A stretch of DNA of 64,000 nucleotides from Lentzea fradiae. Lineage in GTDB: Bacteria; Actinomycetota; Actinomycetes; Mycobacteriales; Pseudonocardiaceae. The DNA lies in NCBI RefSeq assembly GCF_900100955.1, contig NZ_FNCC01000011.1, positions 186,001 to 250,000 on the forward strand, written 5' to 3'. The notes beneath the pieces were generated by a model. The model saw nothing but the letters and a program-made list of their open reading frames with translations, did no database searches and had not been told where the DNA came from. The translations under genes were made by a program, and so were the position numbers. Positions 15,599 through 30,631 of the stretch are shown here, piece by piece; position 1 is the first letter of the stretch; the number at the start of each line of letters is the position of its first letter.

Positions 15599-16636
15599 TC
15601 AGCCGTCGGTCGAGACGATCCGGTCGTCCGTCGGGCCGGGGAAGCCGTTGGTGTCCTGGTTCGACGTGCCGAACCACAGGGTGCCGTCCGGCGCCGAGGC
15701 GATCGCGCGCACCCGGCCGTAGCGGGTGAACAGGGCCTGCGGCGTGCCGAGGTCCGTGCCGTCGACCGGGATCTTCCACACCCGCCTGCCGGTCACCGCG
15801 CCGACGTACAGCGCGTCGCCGTGGACGTCGATGCCCGTCGGGCCCGCCAGGTAGTTGGGCCACGTGATGACCGGGTTGGTCATGCCGGGTTCGGAGCAGG
15901 TGCCCTCGCAGGTCGGCCAGCCGTAGTTCTTGCCGGCCTCGATGCGGTTGACCTCGTCGGTCCGGTTGTTGCCGAACTCCGTGGCGTAGACGGCGCCGCC
16001 GACGAACGTGATGCCCTGGGCGTTGCGGTGGCCGATCGAGTAGACGACGCTGCCCTCCCGCGGGTTGCCGGGGGCGGGCTGGCCGGTGGCGTCGAAGCGG
16101 AGCACCTTGCCGCCCAGCGAGTCCCAGTCCTGCGCGAGGGCGGTGTCCTGGGCGTCGCCCGTGGTGGCCCACAGGTAGCCGTCCGCACCCCACTCCAGAC
16201 CGCCGCCGTTGTGGAACTTGGCACGCGGGATGCCGGTCACGATCGGCTCCGGCGTCCCGCCGAGCTGGAGCTTCGCGACCCGGTTGTCGGTGTCGGTCGT
16301 GTAGTAGATGAAGACGGAGTTGTCCTCCTCGAACGTCTTCGACACGGCCAGGCCGAGCAGGCCGCCCTCACCGCCGGTCGTCCTGGCCTCCTCGACGACG
16401 TCGAGCTCGGTCACGGTCGTGCCGCTGATCTTCTTGATCTTGAACGTGTCCCGTTCGGTGAAGATGCCGCTGCCGTCCGGCAGGAACTCGATGTCCCACG
16501 GGATGTCGAGGTTCGTGGTGAGGGTCCGCTCGGCCAGTGGAGAGGGGTCGTCCGGGGCCGAGGAGGCCGGGGTGACGCAGAGGCCGGCTGCCACGGCGGT
16601 GCAGGCTGCCACGGCCGCGATGCGACGAGCACGCAT
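15599..16636 (-). CDS. Secreted PQQ-dependent sugar dehydrogenase (GSDH/sorbosone family)
   Basis: The 345-residue protein has a signal peptide (about 1-27) and a six-bladed propeller of the soluble glucose/sorbosone dehydrogenase family. Diagnostic segments are GEGGLLGLAVS, FHNGGGLEWGADGYLW (propeller His near the PQQ site), SIGHRNAQGI (second His) and GKNYGWPTCEG. It oxidises aldose sugars outside the cell with PQQ as cofactor. It is divergent from pqqA, so enzyme and cofactor synthesis form one functional module. The exact sugar cannot be assigned. Confidence 0.9.
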   Translation of the reverse strand: MRARRIAAVAACTAVAAGLCVTPASSAPDDPSPLAERTLTTNLDIPWDIEFLPDGSGIFTERDTFKIKKISGTTVTELDVVEEARTTGGEGGLLGLAVSKTFEEDNSVFIYYTTDTDNRVAKLQLGGTPEPIVTGIPRAKFHNGGGLEWGADGYLWATTGDAQDTALAQDWDSLGGKVLRFDATGQPAPGNPREGSVVYSIGHRNAQGITFVGGAVYATEFGNNRTDEVNRIEAGKNYGWPTCEGTCSEPGMTNPVITWPNYLAGPTGIDVHGDALYVGAVTGRRVWKIPVDGTDLGTPQALFTRYGRVRAIASAPDGTLWFGTSNQDTNGFPGPTDDRIVSTDG

Positions 16637-16935
16637 GTGCTCTCCTTCTGTCCGCTCGTAGAAATTGGGCTTCGGCGGCGGAGTTGCAGGGCGTGGTTAC
16701 CCAATCACACTTCGCAGTAACCACAAAAGGTCATCCGACGTGTCGTGTCGAAAATCGACTTCTCTTCGTCGAATCACGAGGTGGGCGGCTCTGTCACCCG
16801 ATGATTTCAGGGAACTCCCTGTACGGTCTGGACCTCCGCCGTGCGGAGCACCTACCGTGGGACCACCGCCGCGCCTCACGGAAAGCGCTTGCACGCCCGC
16901 TCGGGCACGCAGGCAGGACACCCGAGGAGATGCGC
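16637..16935. promoter_or_regulatory. Divergent control region between sugar dehydrogenase and pqqA
   Basis: This gene-free interval (299 bases) must hold both promoters. GTGGTTAC (16693-16700) and GTAACCAC (16717-16724) form a perfect inverted repeat with 16 bases between, a possible dimer or tetramer operator. A second imperfect repeat, TCGTG ... CACGA, spans about 16743-16779. TACGGT near 16820 is a candidate -10 for pqqA. Confidence 0.5.
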
Positions 16936-17058
16936 ATGAACGCTGCCGTCACCCCCACCGAGCCGAAGCTCCCCGAGGTCAGGCGCGAGTGGGTGAAGCC
17001 GGACTTCCGCGACTTCGAGACGCCGATGGAGGTCACCGCCTACGCGGCCCGCGGCTGA
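16936..17058 (+). CDS. pqqA: PQQ precursor peptide PqqA
   Basis: The 40-residue peptide is the ribosomal substrate for PQQ. The core motif EVTAY near its end provides Glu32 and Tyr36, the residues cross-linked by PqqE and built into PQQ. The WVKPDFRDFE block before it matches the W-KP-F-D pattern of other PqqA peptides. ATG 16936 was preferred to ATG 16930 because GAGGAG (16924-16929) abuts the latter. The leader is about 15 residues longer than the classic 23-24 residue PqqA. It is followed by pqqC after 75 bases. Confidence 0.92.
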   Translation: MNAAVTPTEPKLPEVRREWVKPDFRDFETPMEVTAYAARG

Positions 17059-17133
17059 CGTCAGGCTCCGCGCCGGGGTCTCCCGCCGGGAGGCCCCGGT
17101 TCCCCCTCCCCTCGAAGCAGGAGATCCGAGCTG

Positions 17134-17823
17134 ATGACGGCCGTCGCCCCCGAGGAGTTCGTCGGCGAGCTGCGCGCACTCGCACCCCGTTACTGGGACA
17201 GCCACCCGTTCCACCTGCGCATGCACGCCGGTGAGCTGTGCAAGGACGAGCTGCGGCTGTGGGCCGCGAACCGCTGGTACTACCAGCGGTGCATCGCGCA
17301 GAAGGACGCCGCGATCCTCTCCAACTGCCCGCTGCCGGACGTCCGCAGGCAGTGGCGCGACCGGATCGTCTGGCACGACGGCACCCGGCCCGGCGAGGGC
17401 GGCGCCGAGAACTGGATCCGCCTCGCCGAGGCCGTCGGGCTGTCCCGCGAGGAGGTGCTGGACGAACGCCACGTGCTGCCGGGAGTCCGGTTCGCGGTCG
17501 ACGCCTACGTGAACTTCGCGCGCACCCGGCCGTGGGTCGTCGCGGTCGCGTCCGGGCTGACCGAGATGTTCTCGGGTGCGTTGATGCGCAAGCGTCTGGC
17601 GGCGTTGCGGGAGCAGTACCCGTGGATCGCCGAAGAGGGCTTCGCGTACTTCACCCACCGCATCCAGGCCGTCTCCGGCGAAGGACAGGCCACTGTGGAC
17701 ATCGTGGTCGAGCATTCCGTGACGCGGGAACAACAGCTGGAGGCCATCGCCGCGCTGTCGTTCAAGTGCGACGTGCTGCGCGCCTTGCTCGACACCGTCG
17801 ACTACTACGCGGGCAAGTCATGA
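17134..17823 (+). CDS. pqqC: Pyrroloquinoline-quinone synthase PqqC
   Basis: PqqC catalyses the last step, ring closure and eight-electron oxidation of AHQQ to PQQ, without a metal. The 229-residue helical protein contains the family blocks YWDSHPFHLRMHAGEL, NRWYYQR, and the C-terminal LDTVDYYAG that ends most PqqC proteins. AGGAG lies about 9 bases before the ATG. Its stop overlaps pqqD by ATGA. Confidence 0.95.
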   Translation: MTAVAPEEFVGELRALAPRYWDSHPFHLRMHAGELCKDELRLWAANRWYYQRCIAQKDAAILSNCPLPDVRRQWRDRIVWHDGTRPGEGGAENWIRLAEAVGLSREEVLDERHVLPGVRFAVDAYVNFARTRPWVVAVASGLTEMFSGALMRKRLAALREQYPWIAEEGFAYFTHRIQAVSGEGQATVDIVVEHSVTREQQLEAIAALSFKCDVLRALLDTVDYYAGKS

Positions 17824-18083
17824 CCGGTGCCGTTCCACGTCTGCGGCGCGGCGTGAAATGCACCTACGACCAGGTCCGTTCCGCACACGTCGTGCTGTTC
17901 CCCGAGGGCGTGCTGGTGCTGAACGAGACCGCGGCCTCCGTCGTGTCGTTGTGCGACGGGGTCCGATCGGTCGGCGACATCGCCGCGGCTCTGTCCGCCG
18001 AGTACGACGGCGTCGAACCGGACGACGTGGCGGCGCTCGTCGCCCGCCTGGCCGAGCGGAGGGTGGTGGACGTCGATGGCTGA
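17820..18083 (+). CDS. pqqD: PQQ peptide chaperone PqqD
   Basis: PqqD is the 87-residue winged-helix-like chaperone that binds PqqA and presents it to PqqE. The pattern of early conserved Arg/Gly residues, VVLNETAASVVSLCDG and a C-terminal three-helix segment (DVAALVARLAERRVVDV) is typical of RRE domains. It overlaps pqqC by 4 bases and pqqE by 8 bases, indicating coupled translation in the order C-D-E. Confidence 0.93.
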   Translation: MTGAVPRLRRGVKCTYDQVRSAHVVLFPEGVLVLNETAASVVSLCDGVRSVGDIAAALSAEYDGVEPDDVAALVARLAERRVVDVDG

Positions 18084-19143
18084 GGCCCCGTTCGGCCTGC
18101 TCGCCGAGCTGACGCACCGGTGCCCGTTGCAGTGCGGCTACTGCTCGAACCCCGTCGAGCTGGTGCGCCGCGAGGCCGAGCTGCCGACCGAGGACTGGCT
18201 GCGCGTGTTCGACGAGGCACGGGCGCTGGGCGTGTTGCAGATCCACCTCTCCGGCGGCGAACCGTTGCTGCGCAACGACCTCCCCGCACTCGTGACGCAC
18301 GCGTCGAGCCTCGGCTGCTACGTCAACCTGGTCACGTCCGGCGTCGGGCTGTCACGCGACCGCCTGCAAGACCTGGCCTCACGCGGCGTGGACCACGTGC
18401 AGCTCTCGTTGCAGGACGCCACCCGTGCCGGCAACGACCGGATCGCGGGGATCAAGGCGTTCGACCGCAAGGTGGAAGCCGCCGGGTTCATCCGCGACCT
18501 GGGCCTGCCGCTGACCGTGAACACCGTGCTGCACCGCCAGAACCTCGACAACGTCGCCGGGATCATCGCGGCGGCCGAGGAGATGGGCGCCGACCGCCTG
18601 GAGCTCGCCAACACCCAGTACTACGGCTGGGCCCTGCGCAACCGGGCGGCACTGCTCCCGACCAGCACCCAGCTCGCCGCCGCCGCCCCGGTCGTCACCG
18701 CCGCCCAGGAACGCCTGCGAGGCCGCATGGAGATCGTCTACGTCATCGCCGACTACCACGAGGCCCACCCGAAGCCGTGCATGTACGGGTGGGGCGCCCG
18801 CCAGCTCACCGTCGCGCCCAACGGCGACGTCCTCCCCTGCCCCGCCGCCACCGTGATCTCGACGCTGGAGATCGAGAACGTGCGTGACTCGTCGTTGCAC
18901 GACATCTGGCACTCCTCCCCGTCGTTCGGCGCGTTCCGGGGCTTCGAGTGGATGAAGGACCCGTGCCGCTCGTGCTCGCGCAAGGAGGTCGACTTCGGCG
19001 GCTGCCGCTGCCAGGCGTTCCAGCTCACCGGCGACGCCGCCGCCACCGACCCCGTCTGCTCCCTGTCGCCCGACCGCTCCACAGTGGACCTGATCCTGTC
19101 CGCGCCCGCGGCCACCACGATCACGATGCGGAAGATGTCGTGA
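18076..19143 (+). CDS. pqqE: Radical SAM PqqA Glu-Tyr cross-linking enzyme PqqE
   Basis: PqqE joins the Glu and Tyr side chains of PqqA by radical chemistry. The 355-residue enzyme has the radical SAM triad Cys16-Cys20-Cys23 (CPLQCGYCSNP), the SAM-binding LSGGEP segment, and a C-terminal SPASM domain whose cysteines (PKPCMYG, LPCPAA, CRSCSRKEVDFGGCRCQ) bind auxiliary clusters. The start ATG lies within the end of pqqD; its stop overlaps the pqqB GTG by GTGA. Confidence 0.95.
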   Translation: MAEAPFGLLAELTHRCPLQCGYCSNPVELVRREAELPTEDWLRVFDEARALGVLQIHLSGGEPLLRNDLPALVTHASSLGCYVNLVTSGVGLSRDRLQDLASRGVDHVQLSLQDATRAGNDRIAGIKAFDRKVEAAGFIRDLGLPLTVNTVLHRQNLDNVAGIIAAAEEMGADRLELANTQYYGWALRNRAALLPTSTQLAAAAPVVTAAQERLRGRMEIVYVIADYHEAHPKPCMYGWGARQLTVAPNGDVLPCPAATVISTLEIENVRDSSLHDIWHSSPSFGAFRGFEWMKDPCRSCSRKEVDFGGCRCQAFQLTGDAAATDPVCSLSPDRSTVDLILSAPAATTITMRKMS

Positions 19144-20012
19144 AGGCCGTCCTGCTCGGCACCGCGGCCGGTGGCGGCTTCCCGCAGTGGAACTGCGCCT
19201 GCGCCCTGTGCGCGCGGGCCCGTTCCGGCGAGCTGCCCTCCCGGTCGCAGGACTGCCTGGCGATCACCGGCAACGGCACCGACTGGTGGCTGGTCAACGC
19301 CTCCCCCGACCTCCGCACCCAGATCGCGGCGTGCCCCCTCCTCGCGCCCGGCCCCGGCCCCCGCGACACCCCGATCCGCGGCGTGCTGTTCACCGACGCC
19401 GAGCTCGACCACACCCTCGGCCTCCTGACGTTGCGCGGCGGCACCGGCCTCACCGTGCGGGCCCCCGCCGCCGTGCTGCACGCGCTGCGAGACCAGTTCG
19501 ACCTGCGCACGGTGATCGACGGCTACGCCCCGCTGACGTGGCGCGACGACCCGTCCTTCTCCTTGGACGGCCTCCACGTCACCGCGATCCCGATCAGCGA
19601 CAAGCGCCCGAAGTACGCCCGTGCCTCCACAGTGGACGGCCCGTGGGTGGTCGCCTACCGCTTCACCGACGAGACCACCGGCGGCGTGCTCGTCTACGCC
19701 CCCTGCCTGGCCTCGTGGCCGGACGGCTTCGACGAGGTCGTGGCCGGCGCCGACTGCCTCCTCCTGGACGGCACCTTCCACGCGGCGTCCGAGATGGGCT
19801 CGGCCACCGGCAGCCCGTCCGGCCAGGCCGCGATGGGCCACCTCCCGATCACCGGCAGCCTGCCCCTGCTCCGCCGCTTCCCGTCCGTCCGCCGCCTCTA
19901 CACACACCTCAACAACACCAACCCGGTGCTGGACCCGTCATCACCCGAAGCAGTGACACTCCGCACGGCGGGTGTCGAAGTGCCGTTGGACGGCACGATC
20001 GTCGAGCTGTAG
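19140..20012 (+). CDS. pqqB: PQQ biosynthesis hydroxylase PqqB
   Basis: The 290-residue metallo-beta-lactamase-fold protein is proposed to hydroxylate the cross-linked Glu-Tyr intermediate. It starts VKAVLLGTAAGGGFPQWNC, the standard PqqB N-terminus, followed by a CALC cysteine pair and the TDAELDHTLGL metal-site block that replaces the classical HXHXDH. The GTG start overlaps pqqE. Here pqqB is last (A-C-D-E-B) instead of second; no pqqF protease is present, as is common. Confidence 0.94.
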   Translation: MKAVLLGTAAGGGFPQWNCACALCARARSGELPSRSQDCLAITGNGTDWWLVNASPDLRTQIAACPLLAPGPGPRDTPIRGVLFTDAELDHTLGLLTLRGGTGLTVRAPAAVLHALRDQFDLRTVIDGYAPLTWRDDPSFSLDGLHVTAIPISDKRPKYARASTVDGPWVVAYRFTDETTGGVLVYAPCLASWPDGFDEVVAGADCLLLDGTFHAASEMGSATGSPSGQAAMGHLPITGSLPLLRRFPSVRRLYTHLNNTNPVLDPSSPEAVTLRTAGVEVPLDGTIVEL

Positions 20013-21445: not shown

Positions 21446-22543
21446 TCACTCCCCGACGAGGTACCGGTACGAGATCGGCGTCAGGGCGGGCACGTTGACC
21501 TGCCACGGACGGATCACCCGCAGCTCGCCGCCCGAAGCCGTCGGCGGTGAGACCGTGCGGTCGAGCACGATGCCGCTGACGATCATCAACGCGTTGGCCG
21601 GGTACTTCTCCAGGTGGAGGTCGACCTCGTTCTTCGTCAGCACGATCTCGGACTCTTCTGTCCAGGTCGTCGTGGTGCCCTTGACCTCGACGTACAGGTG
21701 TTCCTCCGCCCGTTTCGCGTCGAGGTCGTAGGACTTCGTCGCCCCGACGTCCTTGACCCGGTAGCCCTCGCTCTTGAGATGCTCCGTCGCCACGTCGACG
21801 GCACGCCGCTCGATCGCCCGCCGTTCGTCCGCGCTGAACCGGAGCCCTCGTCGCTCTCTGCCGGCCGTGCGTTCGGCCTCGACTTCCGCGTCGACGACTT
21901 CGGGCGCCGTTTCACCCGGCACGTCGAGGGCGTGGTCCACGATCTCGTACAGCTCGCCGAGGACACCGACGAGGAAGGTGAGATCGTCGGCAAGCACTTC
22001 GTCGGAGGGCAGATCCTCCAACACGTACTCGAAGGCCACGACGTTGCCGTTCTCGTACGCGGGCCCCAACTTCCGGCCGCGCGCCTGAAGATCGATCTTC
22101 GTGACCAGATCCGGCCGCTCCGCCAACCGCGCAGCCAACCGTTCCCTCGCCCACTCCGCCCTTCGATGAAGCTCCTGCACCGGCCGAGCGGGGTACGCGG
22201 TGTTCTCCCACCGCGTCGCTCCCTGCATCAACGACAGGTAGACGCGATCACCCCGCGCAGCGAACAGGTAGACGACGTACCACCCTTTGGTGGCAGAGTC
22301 CGAGCGGCTGACCGAGTACACCCGAGCCCAGGGGATCTCGGCCTTCCCGCCGGTGGCGTCCTTCGCCTGCACGTCCCAGTCGCCGATCCCGACCGGCGCC
22401 TCCCGCGTGACGGCGGGCAACCGTTCCCGCAGCCAGTCCGCCACGTCGCGGCGCATCAGATGGCCGCGCCGCTCCATCTCGGGGGTGTTCCGAGAGCTCC
22501 ACTGGCGCTGGAGCAGAAGGACTTCACGCAGAAGCTCACGCAC
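21446..22543 (-). CDS. McrB-N-like plus DUF3883 nuclease-like protein, probable defence gene
   Basis: The 365-residue protein has two parts. Residues 1 to about 175 resemble the MrcB/DUF3578 N-terminal DNA-reading domain of McrB-type restriction systems (GDWDVQAKDATGGKAEIPWARV, then the YVVYLFAARGDRVYLSL strands). Residues about 245-365 form a DUF3883 domain: SYDLDAKR followed by YVEVKG gives the D ... ExK pattern of PD-(D/E)XK nucleases. No GTPase or helicase partner is nearby, so it may act alone. It lies beside a tRNA gene and a RiPP-like cassette, in an accessory patch. The function is inferred. Confidence 0.72.
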   Translation of the reverse strand: MRELLREVLLLQRQWSSRNTPEMERRGHLMRRDVADWLRERLPAVTREAPVGIGDWDVQAKDATGGKAEIPWARVYSVSRSDSATKGWYVVYLFAARGDRVYLSLMQGATRWENTAYPARPVQELHRRAEWARERLAARLAERPDLVTKIDLQARGRKLGPAYENGNVVAFEYVLEDLPSDEVLADDLTFLVGVLGELYEIVDHALDVPGETAPEVVDAEVEAERTAGRERRGLRFSADERRAIERRAVDVATEHLKSEGYRVKDVGATKSYDLDAKRAEEHLYVEVKGTTTTWTEESEIVLTKNEVDLHLEKYPANALMIVSGIVLDRTVSPPTASGGELRVIRPWQVNVPALTPISYRYLVGE

Positions 22544-22864: not shown

Positions 22865-22941
22865 TGGTACCCCCGACGGGATTCGAACCCGTACTGTGAT
22901 CCTTTTAAGGGACCTGCCTCTACCGATTGGGCTACGGGGGC
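22865..22941 (-). tRNA. Type I tRNA with UAA anticodon (reads UUA), CCA encoded
   Basis: On the minus strand a full cloverleaf folds: acceptor GCCCCCG/CGGGGGT, D arm GCC/GGC, anticodon stem GGTCC/GGATC with loop CTTAAAA, 5-base variable loop ACAGT, T arm ACGGG-TTCGAAT-CCCGT, then ACCA. The anticodon at 22905-22907 is UAA, the leucine UUA reader. Normal bacterial tRNA-Leu has a long variable arm; this one has the short type I loop. The amino acid identity is therefore uncertain. Confidence 0.8.
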
Positions 22942-23059: not shown

Positions 23060-24163
23060 TCAGCGGGACCTCCCCGCGCCGAGCAGTTCGTGGAAGCGCT
23101 GGGCGACCCAGTCGTGCACGGCGGTGGAGACGGCGTCGTCGTCCGCGCGGTGTTCGAACCAGCGCCAGTCGCAGTTCACGTTGATCTCCAGGAACACGTG
23201 TTCCGTGCCGGTCACGAGGAGGTCGAAGGCTGCCACCTGCACGCGCCAGTGGCGGGCCAGGGCCAGGAGGCGGTCGGAGAGGGACGCCGGGACCTCGGTT
23301 CGGGTGACGCGGACGGCGTCGGGGTCCACCCAGAGCTGGGCCGGGTCCAGTTTGTCGACCTGGTAGGCGATGCACTGCTCGCCGACGACGAAGACGCGCA
23401 GTTCCGTGTCGGACGGGACGTACTCCTGCACGATCACCGGCGCGGGTTCCGGGGCGTCGGAGGCCCTGGAGGTTTCCAGGGGGCGGGGGAAGAGGCCGTG
23501 CTGCACGCCGGGGCGGGGTTCGAGGAGGTGCCTGCCGGCCGTTTTGACGATGCAGCGGCCTCCGCCGGGGCGGGTGCGGCCCGGGCGGGTCGTCACGGCT
23601 GTGCGGGGGATGCTGAGGCCGAACGCGGCCGCGTCGGAGAGCTGGGTGAGGCGGTCCAGGTGGGTCGAGAAGCGCGACGGGTTCACGTGGGCCCAGTCGG
23701 AGCGGGACGACAGCCAGTTGGCCACTGAGGCCCACTGGTCGACGGCGTAGGCGCCGGCGAGGGTGCCCGGCTCCACGGGGACCGCCGAGAGCTCGAAGTG
23801 GCGGCGCCACACCAGGAGGGGGCGCAGGAGCCAGCGGTCCAGCTCGATCAGGGGCTGGTCGGTGTAGACGGACAGCGGGAGGTCGATGCAGCGGTCCGCG
23901 TCGATGCGGGCCATGCGGATGCCGCGTTCGGCCAGGGCTATGGAGAGCTCGTTCATCTCCATGTCGGCGGCGCGGGCCAGCACGAGGACGCAGGGCTGGG
24001 GGTTGCCGTCTCCCTCGTCGACCATGCCCAGGCGGTGGACCTGCTCCTGGAAGTCCAGGCACTTGGGCGGCGAGCGGAAGAGGTAGTCCTGGCCCTGCAG
24101 GAGGAGCGGTCTGGCAGCCTCGGACGGGGCGCTGGGCACCCGTCCGTCAGCTGACCTGCTCAA
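23060..24163 (-). CDS. MvdD-like ATP-grasp peptide ligase (graspetide-type RiPP maturase candidate)
   Basis: The 367-residue protein has a pre-ATP-grasp domain (about 55-150: VLVLARAADMEMNELSIAL ... LLVWRR) and an ATP-grasp core (about 170-360). Lys207 (CIVKTAG) fits the ATP lysine, VQEYVP (246-250) the hinge, and Asp314, Glu326 and Asn328 (FLEIN) the magnesium ligands. Known relatives join side-chain carboxylates of a precursor peptide to hydroxyl or amino side chains by ATP activation, forming macrolactones or lactams. The TTG start overlaps the stop of the 40-residue peptide gene (TTGA) after AAGGA, arguing for coupled translation; GTG at 24139 is an alternative. No protease or transporter is adjacent. 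Confidence 0.82.
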   Translation of the reverse strand: MSRSADGRVPSAPSEAARPLLLQGQDYLFRSPPKCLDFQEQVHRLGMVDEGDGNPQPCVLVLARAADMEMNELSIALAERGIRMARIDADRCIDLPLSVYTDQPLIELDRWLLRPLLVWRRHFELSAVPVEPGTLAGAYAVDQWASVANWLSSRSDWAHVNPSRFSTHLDRLTQLSDAAAFGLSIPRTAVTTRPGRTRPGGGRCIVKTAGRHLLEPRPGVQHGLFPRPLETSRASDAPEPAPVIVQEYVPSDTELRVFVVGEQCIAYQVDKLDPAQLWVDPDAVRVTRTEVPASLSDRLLALARHWRVQVAAFDLLVTGTEHVFLEINVNCDWRWFEHRADDDAVSTAVHDWVAQRFHELLGAGRSR

Positions 24164-24282
24164 TCGTCCTTCTTGCTGCGGAAACTCTGCCCCGCCTGCG
24201 CGTACTCCGCGGCGTACTGCGCCAACGCGGGGTCCTCGATCTCACCACGACGAAGCTGTGCGGCCAGCTCCTCGAGAGACAT
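24160..24282 (-). CDS. 40-residue putative RiPP precursor peptide
   Basis: The peptide starts MSLEELAAQLRRG and ends with FRSKKDD. The ATG at 24282 is preceded by GAGAGGTGA about 6 bases upstream, a good ribosome site. Residues 1-30 are predicted amphipathic helix rich in Glu/Ala/Gln and could be the leader. The tail QSFRSKKDD offers Ser33, Ser36, Lys37 and Lys38 as donors and Asp39/Asp40 as acceptors for ATP-grasp cross-linking. Its stop codon overlaps the ligase start. It is much shorter than described graspetide precursors and shows no TxxxxEE-type repeat, so modification at the C-terminus itself is an alternative. Confidence 0.68.
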   Translation of the reverse strand: MSLEELAAQLRRGEIEDPALAQYAAEYAQAGQSFRSKKDD

Positions 24283-24424
24283 CGGGATCACCTCTCTCCC
24301 CACATGGCGAATCACGCATTCAGGTGATGCACCAGCCGTAGTCTCGGCAACACGTAACGCAATGTCAAGGCAGCCTCAGCAGCTTACTCCGATCGGGGGC
24401 TCAAGTTCGGCCTTAGGGCAAAAA

Positions 24425-24479: not shown

Positions 24480-25805
24480 TCAGCTCTGCACCGCGCGGTC
24501 GAAGTCCGACTTCGGGTCGTTGATCTGGCCCAGCGCGACGATCTCGCGGCCGTAGAACAGGGCCTGCGTCCAGTCCATCAGGACGCGGAGCTTGCGGTTC
24601 ACGGTCGGCATGAACATCACGTGGTAGCTGCGGTGCATGAACCACGCCGGAACGCCCTTGAAGCGCAGGCCGAACACGTCCGCGACGCCCTTGTAGAGGC
24701 CGAGGCCCGCCACCGAGCCGAGGTACTTGTGGAAGTAGTCCTTCGGCTTCTGGCCGCGCAGCGACGCGACGATGTTCTTCGCGAGCAGCTTCGACTGGCG
24801 GATGGCGTGCTGCGCGTTCGGCACGCACGTCGCCGTCGGGTCCTCCTCGATGCGCGAGAGGTCCGGCACCGCGGAGCAGTCACCGGCGGCCCACACGCCG
24901 TCGAGGCCCTGGACCTGCATGGCGGCGGTGCACCGGACGCGGCCGCGCTCGTCGAGCGGGAGGTCCGTGTTGCGCAGCACCGGGTTCGCCTTCATGCCGG
25001 CGGTCCAGATGATCGTGTCGGAGTCGAACTCGGTGCCGTCGTCGAGGACGACGTGGCCGTTCTCCAGCGACTTCACGCGGGTGTCGAGGTACATCTTGAT
25101 GCCGCGCTTCTCGAGCGCCTCGACCGTCCACGCGCCGAGCTTGGCGGAGACCTCGGGCATGATCCGGCCGGCGGCCTCGACCAGGACCCAGTTCATCTCC
25201 TCGGGCTTGATGCCCTCGTAGTACTTGAGCGCATACCGCGTCATGTCCTCGAGCTCGGCGAGAGTCTCGATGCCCGCGAAGCCGCCGCCGATCACGACGA
25301 AGCTCAGCAGGCGCTTGCGCAGTTCCGCGTCGTTCGTGCTCGCGGCCTGGTCCAGGCGCGACAGCACGTGGTTGCGGACGTAGATCGCCTCGCCGATCGT
25401 CTTCATGCCGATGCCGACCTCGGCCAGGCCGGGGATCGGGAGCGTGCGGGAGATCGCACCCAGCGCGGAGACGAGCACGTCGTACTCGATCTCCTCGACG
25501 TGACCGTCCGACAGCTCGGCGGTCACGATCTTGCGCGAGTGCTCGATCTTGTTCACGCGGCCGGTGACGACGTGGCAGCGCTTGAGCACCTTGCGCAGCG
25601 GAGCGACGACGTGGCGCGGCTCGATCGAGCCGGCCGCCGCCTCTGGCAGGAAGGGCTGGTAGGTCATGTGCGGCTGCGGGTCGATTACCGTCACGGACGC
25701 TTCGCCGGAGCGCAGTTTCTTCTGCAGTCCGAGCGCCGTGTACATGCCGACGTACCCACCGCCGACAATGACAATCCGAGTGGGGTGCGACTTCACAGCA
25801 GCCAT
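24480..25805 (-). CDS. ndh: Type II NADH dehydrogenase (NDH-2)
   Basis: This single-subunit, non-proton-pumping enzyme transfers electrons from NADH to quinone at the membrane. The 441-residue flavoprotein has an N-terminal FAD motif (IVIVGGGYVGMYTA), a second GGGFAGIET dinucleotide motif for NADH, and the WAAGDCSAVP FAD pyrophosphate block. The C-terminal amphipathic segment (HRSYHVMFMPTVNRKLRVL) fits membrane association. ATG 25805 was chosen because the family starts just before this FAD motif; a start at 25832 would add nine residues. A strong terminator follows. Confidence 0.9.
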   Translation of the reverse strand: MAAVKSHPTRIVIVGGGYVGMYTALGLQKKLRSGEASVTVIDPQPHMTYQPFLPEAAAGSIEPRHVVAPLRKVLKRCHVVTGRVNKIEHSRKIVTAELSDGHVEEIEYDVLVSALGAISRTLPIPGLAEVGIGMKTIGEAIYVRNHVLSRLDQAASTNDAELRKRLLSFVVIGGGFAGIETLAELEDMTRYALKYYEGIKPEEMNWVLVEAAGRIMPEVSAKLGAWTVEALEKRGIKMYLDTRVKSLENGHVVLDDGTEFDSDTIIWTAGMKANPVLRNTDLPLDERGRVRCTAAMQVQGLDGVWAAGDCSAVPDLSRIEEDPTATCVPNAQHAIRQSKLLAKNIVASLRGQKPKDYFHKYLGSVAGLGLYKGVADVFGLRFKGVPAWFMHRSYHVMFMPTVNRKLRVLMDWTQALFYGREIVALGQINDPKSDFDRAVQS

Positions 25806-25947
25806 ACACACATGGTCGCACCACGACCCCATTTTTCGCGCGTCCGGAGGGGCCGTTGTGACTACCGTCGCCAGGTGATGCGGGACACGATCCGCGCTGA
25901 CCTGGCACTTGAGCCGCAGTTGAGGTGTTCCCGCTGAGAGGACCGAT

Positions 25948-29569: not shown

Positions 29570-30631
29570 GTGGCCTCGACGGACGTCTTCATCAACTACC
29601 GCGGGGTCGACGCCGACCACGTGCCCCAGCTGCTGTTCGAACGCCTGTCCCGCACGTTCGGGCGGCGCCGGGTGTTCCTCGACAACATGACGATCGGGGC
29701 GGGCGAGGACTACGTGGTCAGCCTGCTGGAGGGGGTGCGGTCGGCGAAGGTGCTGCTGGCGGTGATCGGACCGAACTGGTTCGCCACCGACTCCGCCGGC
29801 CGCCGGTTGGTCGACGACCCGGACGACTGGATCCGGCGCGAGCTGGTCACGGCCTTCGCCCACGGCGTGCGGGTGGTCCCGGTGTTCACCGACGGCGCCA
29901 CGCCGCCGCGCCCGGAACAGCTTCCGGCGGACATCAGGCAGCTGGGCAGGCAGAACGGTCTGCCGCTGCGCCGGATCCGCTCCGGCGAGGACCTCGACGC
30001 GATCGTGCGGGCGGTGTCCACGCACGTCCCGTCCCGCCGTCGCCGCCTGCTCACCGTGCTGGCCGCCGTGCTGGTGGTCGCGGTCGCGGCAACGCTGGTC
30101 CCGCTGCTGCTGCGGCCGGACGGCACCACCTCTGCTCCCGGACCCGGCACGCCCGTAAGCACCACGTCCGTGACCACCACGACGTCCACGACCGCTGAAG
30201 CCACGACCGTCGAGGCGACGACCACGAAGGCCACCACCACGACCACTTCCGAGCCGCCCGCCGCCGGAACGTGGTGGGAGGGCACGCTGACCCTGGACGC
30301 GGACACGTTCACCACGGGCTGGTCGCTGGACTCCTCACCGCCGCAGCGCTGGCCGTTGGGCGACCTGGGGCTGTGCTCCGGCGACTGCGGCGGTACTGCC
30401 GTCGCGGGTGTGGCCTTCGCGCCGTGGATCGGTGCCGCGCCGCCGGAACGGGCGCAGTGCGTGGACCGGCTGAACGCCAATCCCGGTGTGCGGCGGCTGC
30501 CCGTCCGCGCCGGTACGCGGGGGTGTCTGGTGACCGAGGGGCGGCGCATCGGACGGTTGGAGGTCGTCGGGATCGACGGGCCGGGCAAGATGCGGATCGC
30601 GGTCACGGTCTGGGAGACCCCGTCTGGCTAG
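29570..30631 (+). CDS. Membrane-anchored TIR-domain protein
   Basis: The 353-residue protein has an N-terminal cytoplasmic TIR domain (about 1-150; DVFINYRG, VFLDN, VLLAVIGPNWF), a basic stretch and one transmembrane helix (about 159-181), a Thr-rich outer linker (190-230) and a roughly 120-residue external domain with four cysteines (LCSGDCG, QCVD, RGCLV). Glu46 in GAGED aligns by eye with the catalytic glutamate of NAD-hydrolysing TIR domains such as SARM1. The layout suggests that an external signal is passed to a TIR enzyme or scaffold inside. It is not in an obvious defence operon; function is inferred. Confidence 0.82.
   Translation: MASTDVFINYRGVDADHVPQLLFERLSRTFGRRRVFLDNMTIGAGEDYVVSLLEGVRSAKVLLAVIGPNWFATDSAGRRLVDDPDDWIRRELVTAFAHGVRVVPVFTDGATPPRPEQLPADIRQLGRQNGLPLRRIRSGEDLDAIVRAVSTHVPSRRRRLLTVLAAVLVVAVAATLVPLLLRPDGTTSAPGPGTPVSTTSVTTTTSTTAEATTVEATTTKATTTTTSEPPAAGTWWEGTLTLDADTFTTGWSLDSSPPQRWPLGDLGLCSGDCGGTAVAGVAFAPWIGAAPPERAQCVDRLNANPGVRRLPVRAGTRGCLVTEGRRIGRLEVVGIDGPGKMRIAVTVWETPSG

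Follow-up and report, generated by a model that had tools for sequence, protein, structure and literature searches.

A conserved peptide and ATP-grasp ligase cassette with a near-frozen C-terminal tail in Lentzea fradiae and related Pseudonocardiaceae

Introduction

ATP-grasp ligases convert a carboxylate to an acyl phosphate, which is then attacked by an amine or a hydroxyl group. Among them, the graspetide synthetases (MdnC/MdnB, AMdnB, CdnC, PsnB, and PruB; TIGR04184, TIGR04185, and TIGR04187) combine a pre-ATP-grasp domain with an ATP-grasp fold and are encoded beside a short precursor gene. A 64,000-nucleotide stretch of the Lentzea fradiae genome, referred to here as the window, carries a cassette that shares this fold, the catalytic residues, and the adjacent gene for a short peptide, here of 40 residues. 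The cassette is nevertheless unlike the described graspetide systems in several respects. Its ligase scores 82 bits against TIGR04187, for which the cut-off is 350; its peptide ends in a near-invariant four-residue tail, in contrast to the diverse cores described in the relevant passages of PMC8939145; the unit has no exporter or protease; and the tails of four relatives have no Asp or Glu near the end.

A closer counterpart is found in the ‘branch 6’ ATP-grasp ligases of Makarova et al. 2022 (PMC8939145). According to the passages of that survey on this branch, its sole predicted precursors are clusters 367 and 1115, which are without the usual leader motifs; most loci encoding these clusters hold a SagB-like nitroreductase, and other branch 6 loci contain genes for type III polyketide synthases and adenylate cyclases. 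The family examined here has the same small precursor, ATP-grasp ligase, and SagB-like enzyme, and genes of both other kinds likewise occur beside its homologues. Branch 6 with clusters 367 and 1115 is likely to be this cassette family, the two being matched by description and not by cluster sequences. The pairing of precursor, ligase, and SagB-like enzyme is thus probably present in the 2022 survey and is not wholly new, whereas the near-frozen tail, the losses of SagB, and the genomic site described below are unmentioned in its passages on branch 6. A later paper (Carter et al. 2026, PMC13097080) lists graspetide groups with ligase and precursor only, and a term search of its main text returned no mention of SagB or nitroreductase. 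Titles and abstract openings on graspetides or ATP-grasp enzymes together with SagB or nitroreductase, in a sample that leaves the subscription literature mostly uncovered, contained no experiment on such a cassette.

Other ATP-grasp ligases, such as RimK and the LysX/ArgX enzymes acting on LysW, work at the C-terminus of a small protein. The predicted fold of the window ligase is similar to theirs, but the match in both sequence and fold is weaker than to the graspetide synthetases. LysW has an EDWGE tail and a zinc-finger body; the window peptide, by contrast, ends in KKDD and has no Cys, no EDWGE tail, and no zinc-finger body. A further parallel is offered by the PEARL scaffold peptides (ammosamide), small peptides for which the consulted parts of PMC11117183 and PMC12715798 describe modification of the C-terminus after ATP-dependent activation of a carboxylate, as is only proposed here. 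PEARLs differ in using aminoacyl-tRNA, according to the same parts of these papers. No PEARL gene is present in the unit, the spacings of which fit peptide, ligase, and SagB only; the rest of the genome was not searched for one.

Conservation of the peptide and its tail

The peptide gene (24160-24282, minus strand) has an ATG start and encodes the 40-residue product MSLEELAAQLRRGEIEDPALAQYAAEYAQAGQSFRSKKDD, a putative substrate or carrier. The ligase gene (23060-24163, minus strand; 367 aa) has a TTG start and overlaps it, the bases TTGA being common to the peptide stop and the ligase start. Position and overlap are as given in the original prediction, as is a ribosome-binding site, read by eye as GAGAGGTGA in the region 24288..24298 (minus strand). 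All 22 Lentzea-type loci retain this TTG overlap; elsewhere the spacing between the peptide stop and the matched ligase segment is variable and reaches 256 bases.

Scanning of named genomes gave 72 loci. In L102 the match is limited to the last 64 residues of the ligase; the remaining 71 have a near full-length ligase. Their titles name Lentzea, Umezawaea, Saccharothrix, Actinosynnema, Solihabitans, Allokutzneria, Kutzneria, Crossiella, Streptoalloteichus, Saccharopolyspora, Actinoalloteichus, Longimycelium, and one further Pseudonocardiaceae, and we take the genera other than Lentzea to belong to the same family as the window. One locus record is labelled Nocardia, with a ligase 94% identical to that of the window. 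The peptide is encoded upstream of the ligase in all 71 named loci (L061 included). A dedicated peptide-ligase pair had been proposed, and a check for ligase homologues beside which the peptide is not conserved found it conserved throughout this set.

The C-terminal tail is KKDD in the window and in 70 of the 71 loci, and RKDD in L071, in agreement with the proposal that it is the conserved candidate site of modification. At the codon level (24163..24174, minus strand, in the window), comparison of 71 parsed peptides (the window and 70 loci) found that the Lys, Lys, Asp, and Asp positions use 2, 2, 1, and 2 codons, respectively, with synonymous changes only, while each of the six positions preceding the tail takes 3 to 8 different residues. 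Conservation of the peptide and of its tail codons rules out a chance open reading frame. In a low-confidence model of a relative’s peptide, helices are predicted at residues 3-11 and 18-28.

The ligase

The ligase is a divergent relative of the graspetide synthetases, in the MvdC/MvdD/MdnC-type ATP-grasp superfamily. Its profile matches in the PDB are AMdnB, MdnB, CdnC, PruB, and MdnC, and its predicted fold is closest to MdnC, AMdnB, PsnB, and PruB, both of which support the earlier description of an MvdD-like enzyme at the level of the MdnC/MvdD superfamily. Against the NCBIfam models, it stays below the cut-offs of TIGR04187 (82.4 bits), TIGR04185 (55 bits; cut-off 425), and TIGR04184 (51.8 bits; cut-off 475). 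Four of the five ATP-grasp residues originally named (Lys207, Asp314, Glu326, and Asn328) show no variation among the 31 ligases aligned. The fifth, Glu247, is not a fixed residue, since position 247 is Glu in 15 of these ligases and Gln in 16.

This superfamily membership fits an ordinary graspetide, in which a Lys-Asp side-chain cross-link would be made in the precursor of a secreted bioactive peptide, and KKDD supplies both residues. Groups consisting of ligase and precursor only (27, 28, and 35) are also reported in the consulted parts of PMC13097080. However, a short tail that is near-invariant across genera is not what such a product would suggest, and the genomic site and the distant relatives described below bear on the same question.

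Genomic site and inheritance

An ndh-type NADH dehydrogenase gene (24480..25832, minus strand, in the window, with an alternative start at 25805; Pfam Pyr_redox_2) lies upstream of the cassette on the same strand in all 71 loci, and the ndh-to-peptide gap is 151-407 bases in the 70 loci measured. The downstream boundary is tRNA-Leu(UAA) (22865..22941, minus strand, in the window) in 70 of the 71, the exception being L044, which stops at a contig end. Where no gene for a SagB-type flavoenzyme follows the ligase, the tRNA starts 74-186 bases past the ligase (49 of 50 loci, L044 again excepted); where one does, the tRNA starts 1,136-1,299 bases past it with SagB between (21 of 21). The unit set between ndh and tRNA-Leu(UAA) thus consists of the peptide, the ligase, and, optionally, SagB, and its spacings are too small to accommodate an exporter, a protease, or an amine-making gene as well. 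The earlier statement that no transporter or protease is nearby holds within this unit. A gene of serine carboxypeptidase type (Pfam Peptidase_S10) is found some 7-8 kb off on the opposite strand.

The same site was examined in 20 cassette-free genomes, one for each of 20 genera of the family, using the best ndh match in each. In 17 of them tRNA-Leu(UAA) lies within 1.5 kb after ndh (on the opposite strand in one), and this arrangement looks like the empty site. Pairwise distances of ligase and ndh are correlated (Spearman 0.91 over 2,485 non-independent pairs), which suggests that the cassette has been inherited mostly vertically at one chromosomal site. A plasmid-borne gene was considered and rejected, a distant blastn search with 1,341 bases having returned no match in the plasmid collection.

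Ligase matches were found in 110 of 297 genomes sampled from the family (E <= 1e-20), in 20 of 46 genera; a few of these 110 are distant or fragmentary, and the count for presence of the peptide refers to the 71 named loci. At the level of the order, 12 of 298 genomes have a match (E <= 1e-15), of which 11 belong to the window’s family, and at the level of the phylum 8 of 396 do, own genome counted (E <= 1e-10). Vertical inheritance at one site and the absence of an exporter or protease from the unit both argue against an ordinary graspetide; vertical inheritance and the lack of an exporter gene suggest a cell-internal role instead.

The third gene

A SagB-type gene directly follows the ligase in 21 of the 71 loci and is not there in the other 50. 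It is adjacent in 3 of 3 Umezawaea, 12 of 12 Saccharothrix, and 2 of 2 Streptoalloteichus loci, and in the one locus each of Actinosynnema, Solihabitans, Actinoalloteichus, and Longimycelium. The three SagB-type proteins compared with curated models (L098, L117, and L080, of which L117 belongs to a distant cassette) score above the TIGR03605 cut-off and give 161-174 bits against TIGR04511, for which the cut-off is 240. In the window’s genus, five other genomes were searched and none has a SagB-type match at E <= 1e-10; the own genome has one weak match (31%, E 3e-7).

The history of this gene was reconstructed by parsimony on one FastTree tree of 73 ligases (the 71 loci and two outgroups), rooted with L204. 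The observed pattern needs five changes, or five losses if only losses are allowed, and on this parsimony the unit would originally have comprised three genes, with SagB lost from the lineage of Lentzea and from four further lineages. The minimal two-gene cassette first described therefore stands as regards the peptide and ligase, which are the part that is kept, but not as an original make-up. The tail is unchanged after the losses of SagB, and thus the SagB step is not what maintains it.

Distant cassettes and tail variants

Beyond the named loci, 39 distant locus records were considered, some of which overlap the same ligase. Within the DNA stretches examined, the seven records with a SagB match are also the seven with a clear peptide (L103, L117, L118, L204, L217, L218, and L219; the SagB gene of L118 is cut off by a contig end), whereas the other 32 have neither. 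One of these 32, L116 (L163), provides a weak eighth candidate, with a peptide ending KSETE and no SagB. The seven tails are CKSCHGG (L103), KKDN (L117 and L219), KKDS (L118), CKGCHGG (L204), CAKTHC (L217), and CNKTHC (L218). On a ligase tree that takes in the distant homologues, the loci with CK and C[AN]K tails group together as one clade (support 0.99), L219 falls with the Pseudonocardiaceae (0.98), and the ligases with neither SagB nor peptide form a separate group (0.94).

Asp and Glu are absent from the last 14 residues of the peptide with the CKSCHGG tail, the last 11 of that with CKGCHGG, and the last 24 of the CAKTHC and CNKTHC peptides. Four of the eight distant peptides therefore have no Asp or Glu in their last 11 residues or more, whereas the window tail has both Lys and Asp. 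The terminal Asp residues originally proposed as cross-link sites are thus available in the window, but a side-chain Asp cross-link is not the rule of the wider family, and an ordinary graspetide is, on all of these points, an unlikely explanation.

All nine tails compared (window and eight distant) do have a C-terminal carboxylate in common, together with a Lys that lies 3-6 residues before the end, and an amide onto this Lys is favoured for that reason. The same comparison bears on whether the peptide could instead assist the ligase as a partner protein, or act as a small regulatory protein, with the true substrate elsewhere. Graspetide synthetases that depend on partner proteins exist, as described in part of PMC13097080, and a fixed tail could serve for binding. 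However, the conserved part is a free C-terminus with Lys in nine of nine tails, and the unit has no space for any further gene except SagB, making a partner role the least probable of the explanations considered here.

Several observations concern the distant loci themselves. The CKSCHGG (L103) and CKGCHGG (L204) tails contain CXXCH, the pattern of haem c attachment, and the L217 and L218 peptides end in C[AN]KTHC. In L163 (12669-17001), a type III polyketide synthase and an aminotransferase are encoded within about 8 kb of the ligase homologue; an amidinotransferase suspected there by eye had no Pfam match and is not claimed. This neighbourhood resembles the pheganomycin-like loci in the consulted part of PMC8939145. 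Finally, L156-L162 and L205-L208 hold related ligases without SagB or such a peptide, which are outside the window’s family and several of which adjoin genes named by eye as GAF-like, S8-protease-like, and adenylate-cyclase-like.

Upstream and neighbouring features

A conserved promoter-like block, TTGACATTGCGTTACGTGTTGCCGAGACTAC (24338..24368, minus strand), lies upstream of the peptide gene, and its role as a promoter is putative. The CTTGAC block is present in the ndh-peptide intergenic regions of 69 of 70 relatives, and in all but one of these 69 (68) its start lies 83-89 bases ahead of that of the peptide. A search of the own genome allowing up to 3 mismatches returned only the cassette itself, and a wider regulon was rejected on this result.

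Elsewhere in the window, a pyrroloquinoline quinone (PQQ) biosynthesis cluster lies beside a glucose/sorbosone dehydrogenase gene (15599-20012). By Pfam, PqqC-family, radical SAM/SPASM, and metallo-beta-lactamase-fold genes occupy the PqqC, PqqE, and PqqB positions, and a PqqA-like peptide was read by eye at about 16936-17058. A PqqB-like gene occurs within flanks of up to 6 kb of the cassette in 22 of the 71 loci, and this neighbourhood alone was not taken as a functional link. Just past the tRNA-Leu gene is a protein with MrcB_N and NO VEIN C-terminal domains (21446-22543), and a TIR-domain protein (Pfam TIR_2) is encoded at 29570-30631.

Proposed chemistry and biological meaning

We tentatively favour, at somewhat less than an even chance, a self-contained peptide-modification cassette in which the ligase makes an amide in the tail, most likely onto the tail Lys, and the product probably remains inside the cell. 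The helical front part of the peptide would be recognised by the ligase, which would consume ATP in activating one of the carboxylates of the C-terminal tail. The amine of the new amide would most likely come from a Lys within KKDD itself, so that a small ring results, and its donor would be either a tail Asp or the C-terminal carboxylate. A SagB-type flavoenzyme may once have worked alongside and have been lost without loss of the peptide or tail. In this scheme, we infer the peptide as substrate, the activation of the tail carboxylate, Lys as the acceptor, and the intracellular location of the product.

Several points weigh against this reading. The chemistry is a proposal from sequence, and with no known maturation protease a free product is hypothetical. 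Given the tails without Asp or Glu in four relatives, the carboxylate might instead be supplied by the C-terminus or by an acid from outside, and a Lys-Asp side-chain link may be wrong. A tethered peptide-ligase model leaves the peptide and its tail at low confidence and so gives no information on docking, and a unit without an exporter is compatible with export by genes elsewhere. The five SagB losses come from a single FastTree tree with node support unweighted. On the ligase tree with the distant homologues, the placement of L116, L117, and L118 is weakly supported (about 0.3). Some relatives without SagB beside the ligase have SagB-type matches elsewhere in the genome (G057: 48%, over part of the protein), such that loss beside the ligase is no proof of lost function there. 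In addition, a peptide profile built from Pseudonocardiaceae only and run against 4,250 open reading frame segments clearly recovers one of the seven distant peptides (L219, E 8.5e-5). L103 and L118 appear at E 0.8-1.4 amid background matches; stronger scores came from a profile that already contained those peptides. The case for homology of the peptide in the wider family thus depends mainly on where the gene lies and on a short motif.

Ranked second, close behind a tail amide onto Lys, is ligation of an outside amine or amino acid to the activated C-terminal or Asp side-chain carboxylate, with the peptide serving as a carrier or being extended, much as RimK acts on ribosomal protein S6, LysX/ArgX on LysW, and PEARLs on their scaffold peptides. 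This is possible, if doubtful. To a comparable, limited degree, the peptide might be a ribosomally made carrier or cofactor and not the precursor of a secreted product, with the ligase joining a small molecule or the peptide’s own Lys to the C-terminal carboxylate. In Pseudonocardiaceae the modified peptide might then function inside the cell beside ndh, perhaps in a redox-linked way. If true, an enzyme of the graspetide-synthetase superfamily would here be performing ATP-grasp chemistry on a free C-terminus.

In either case, the matter at stake is whether side chains or the free C-terminus are the target of this branch of graspetide-like ligases. The cassette offers a very small testable system of two genes, with a 40-residue putative substrate and a nearly fixed four-residue tail, and nature provides variants with or without the third enzyme and with tails that have no nearby acidic residue. 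A cell-internal role would be unusual among enzymes of the graspetide-synthetase type. Overall, the cassette is conserved, and is unusual in its minimal make-up and near-frozen tail; it probably represents a divergent, cell-internal branch of graspetide-like peptide modification.
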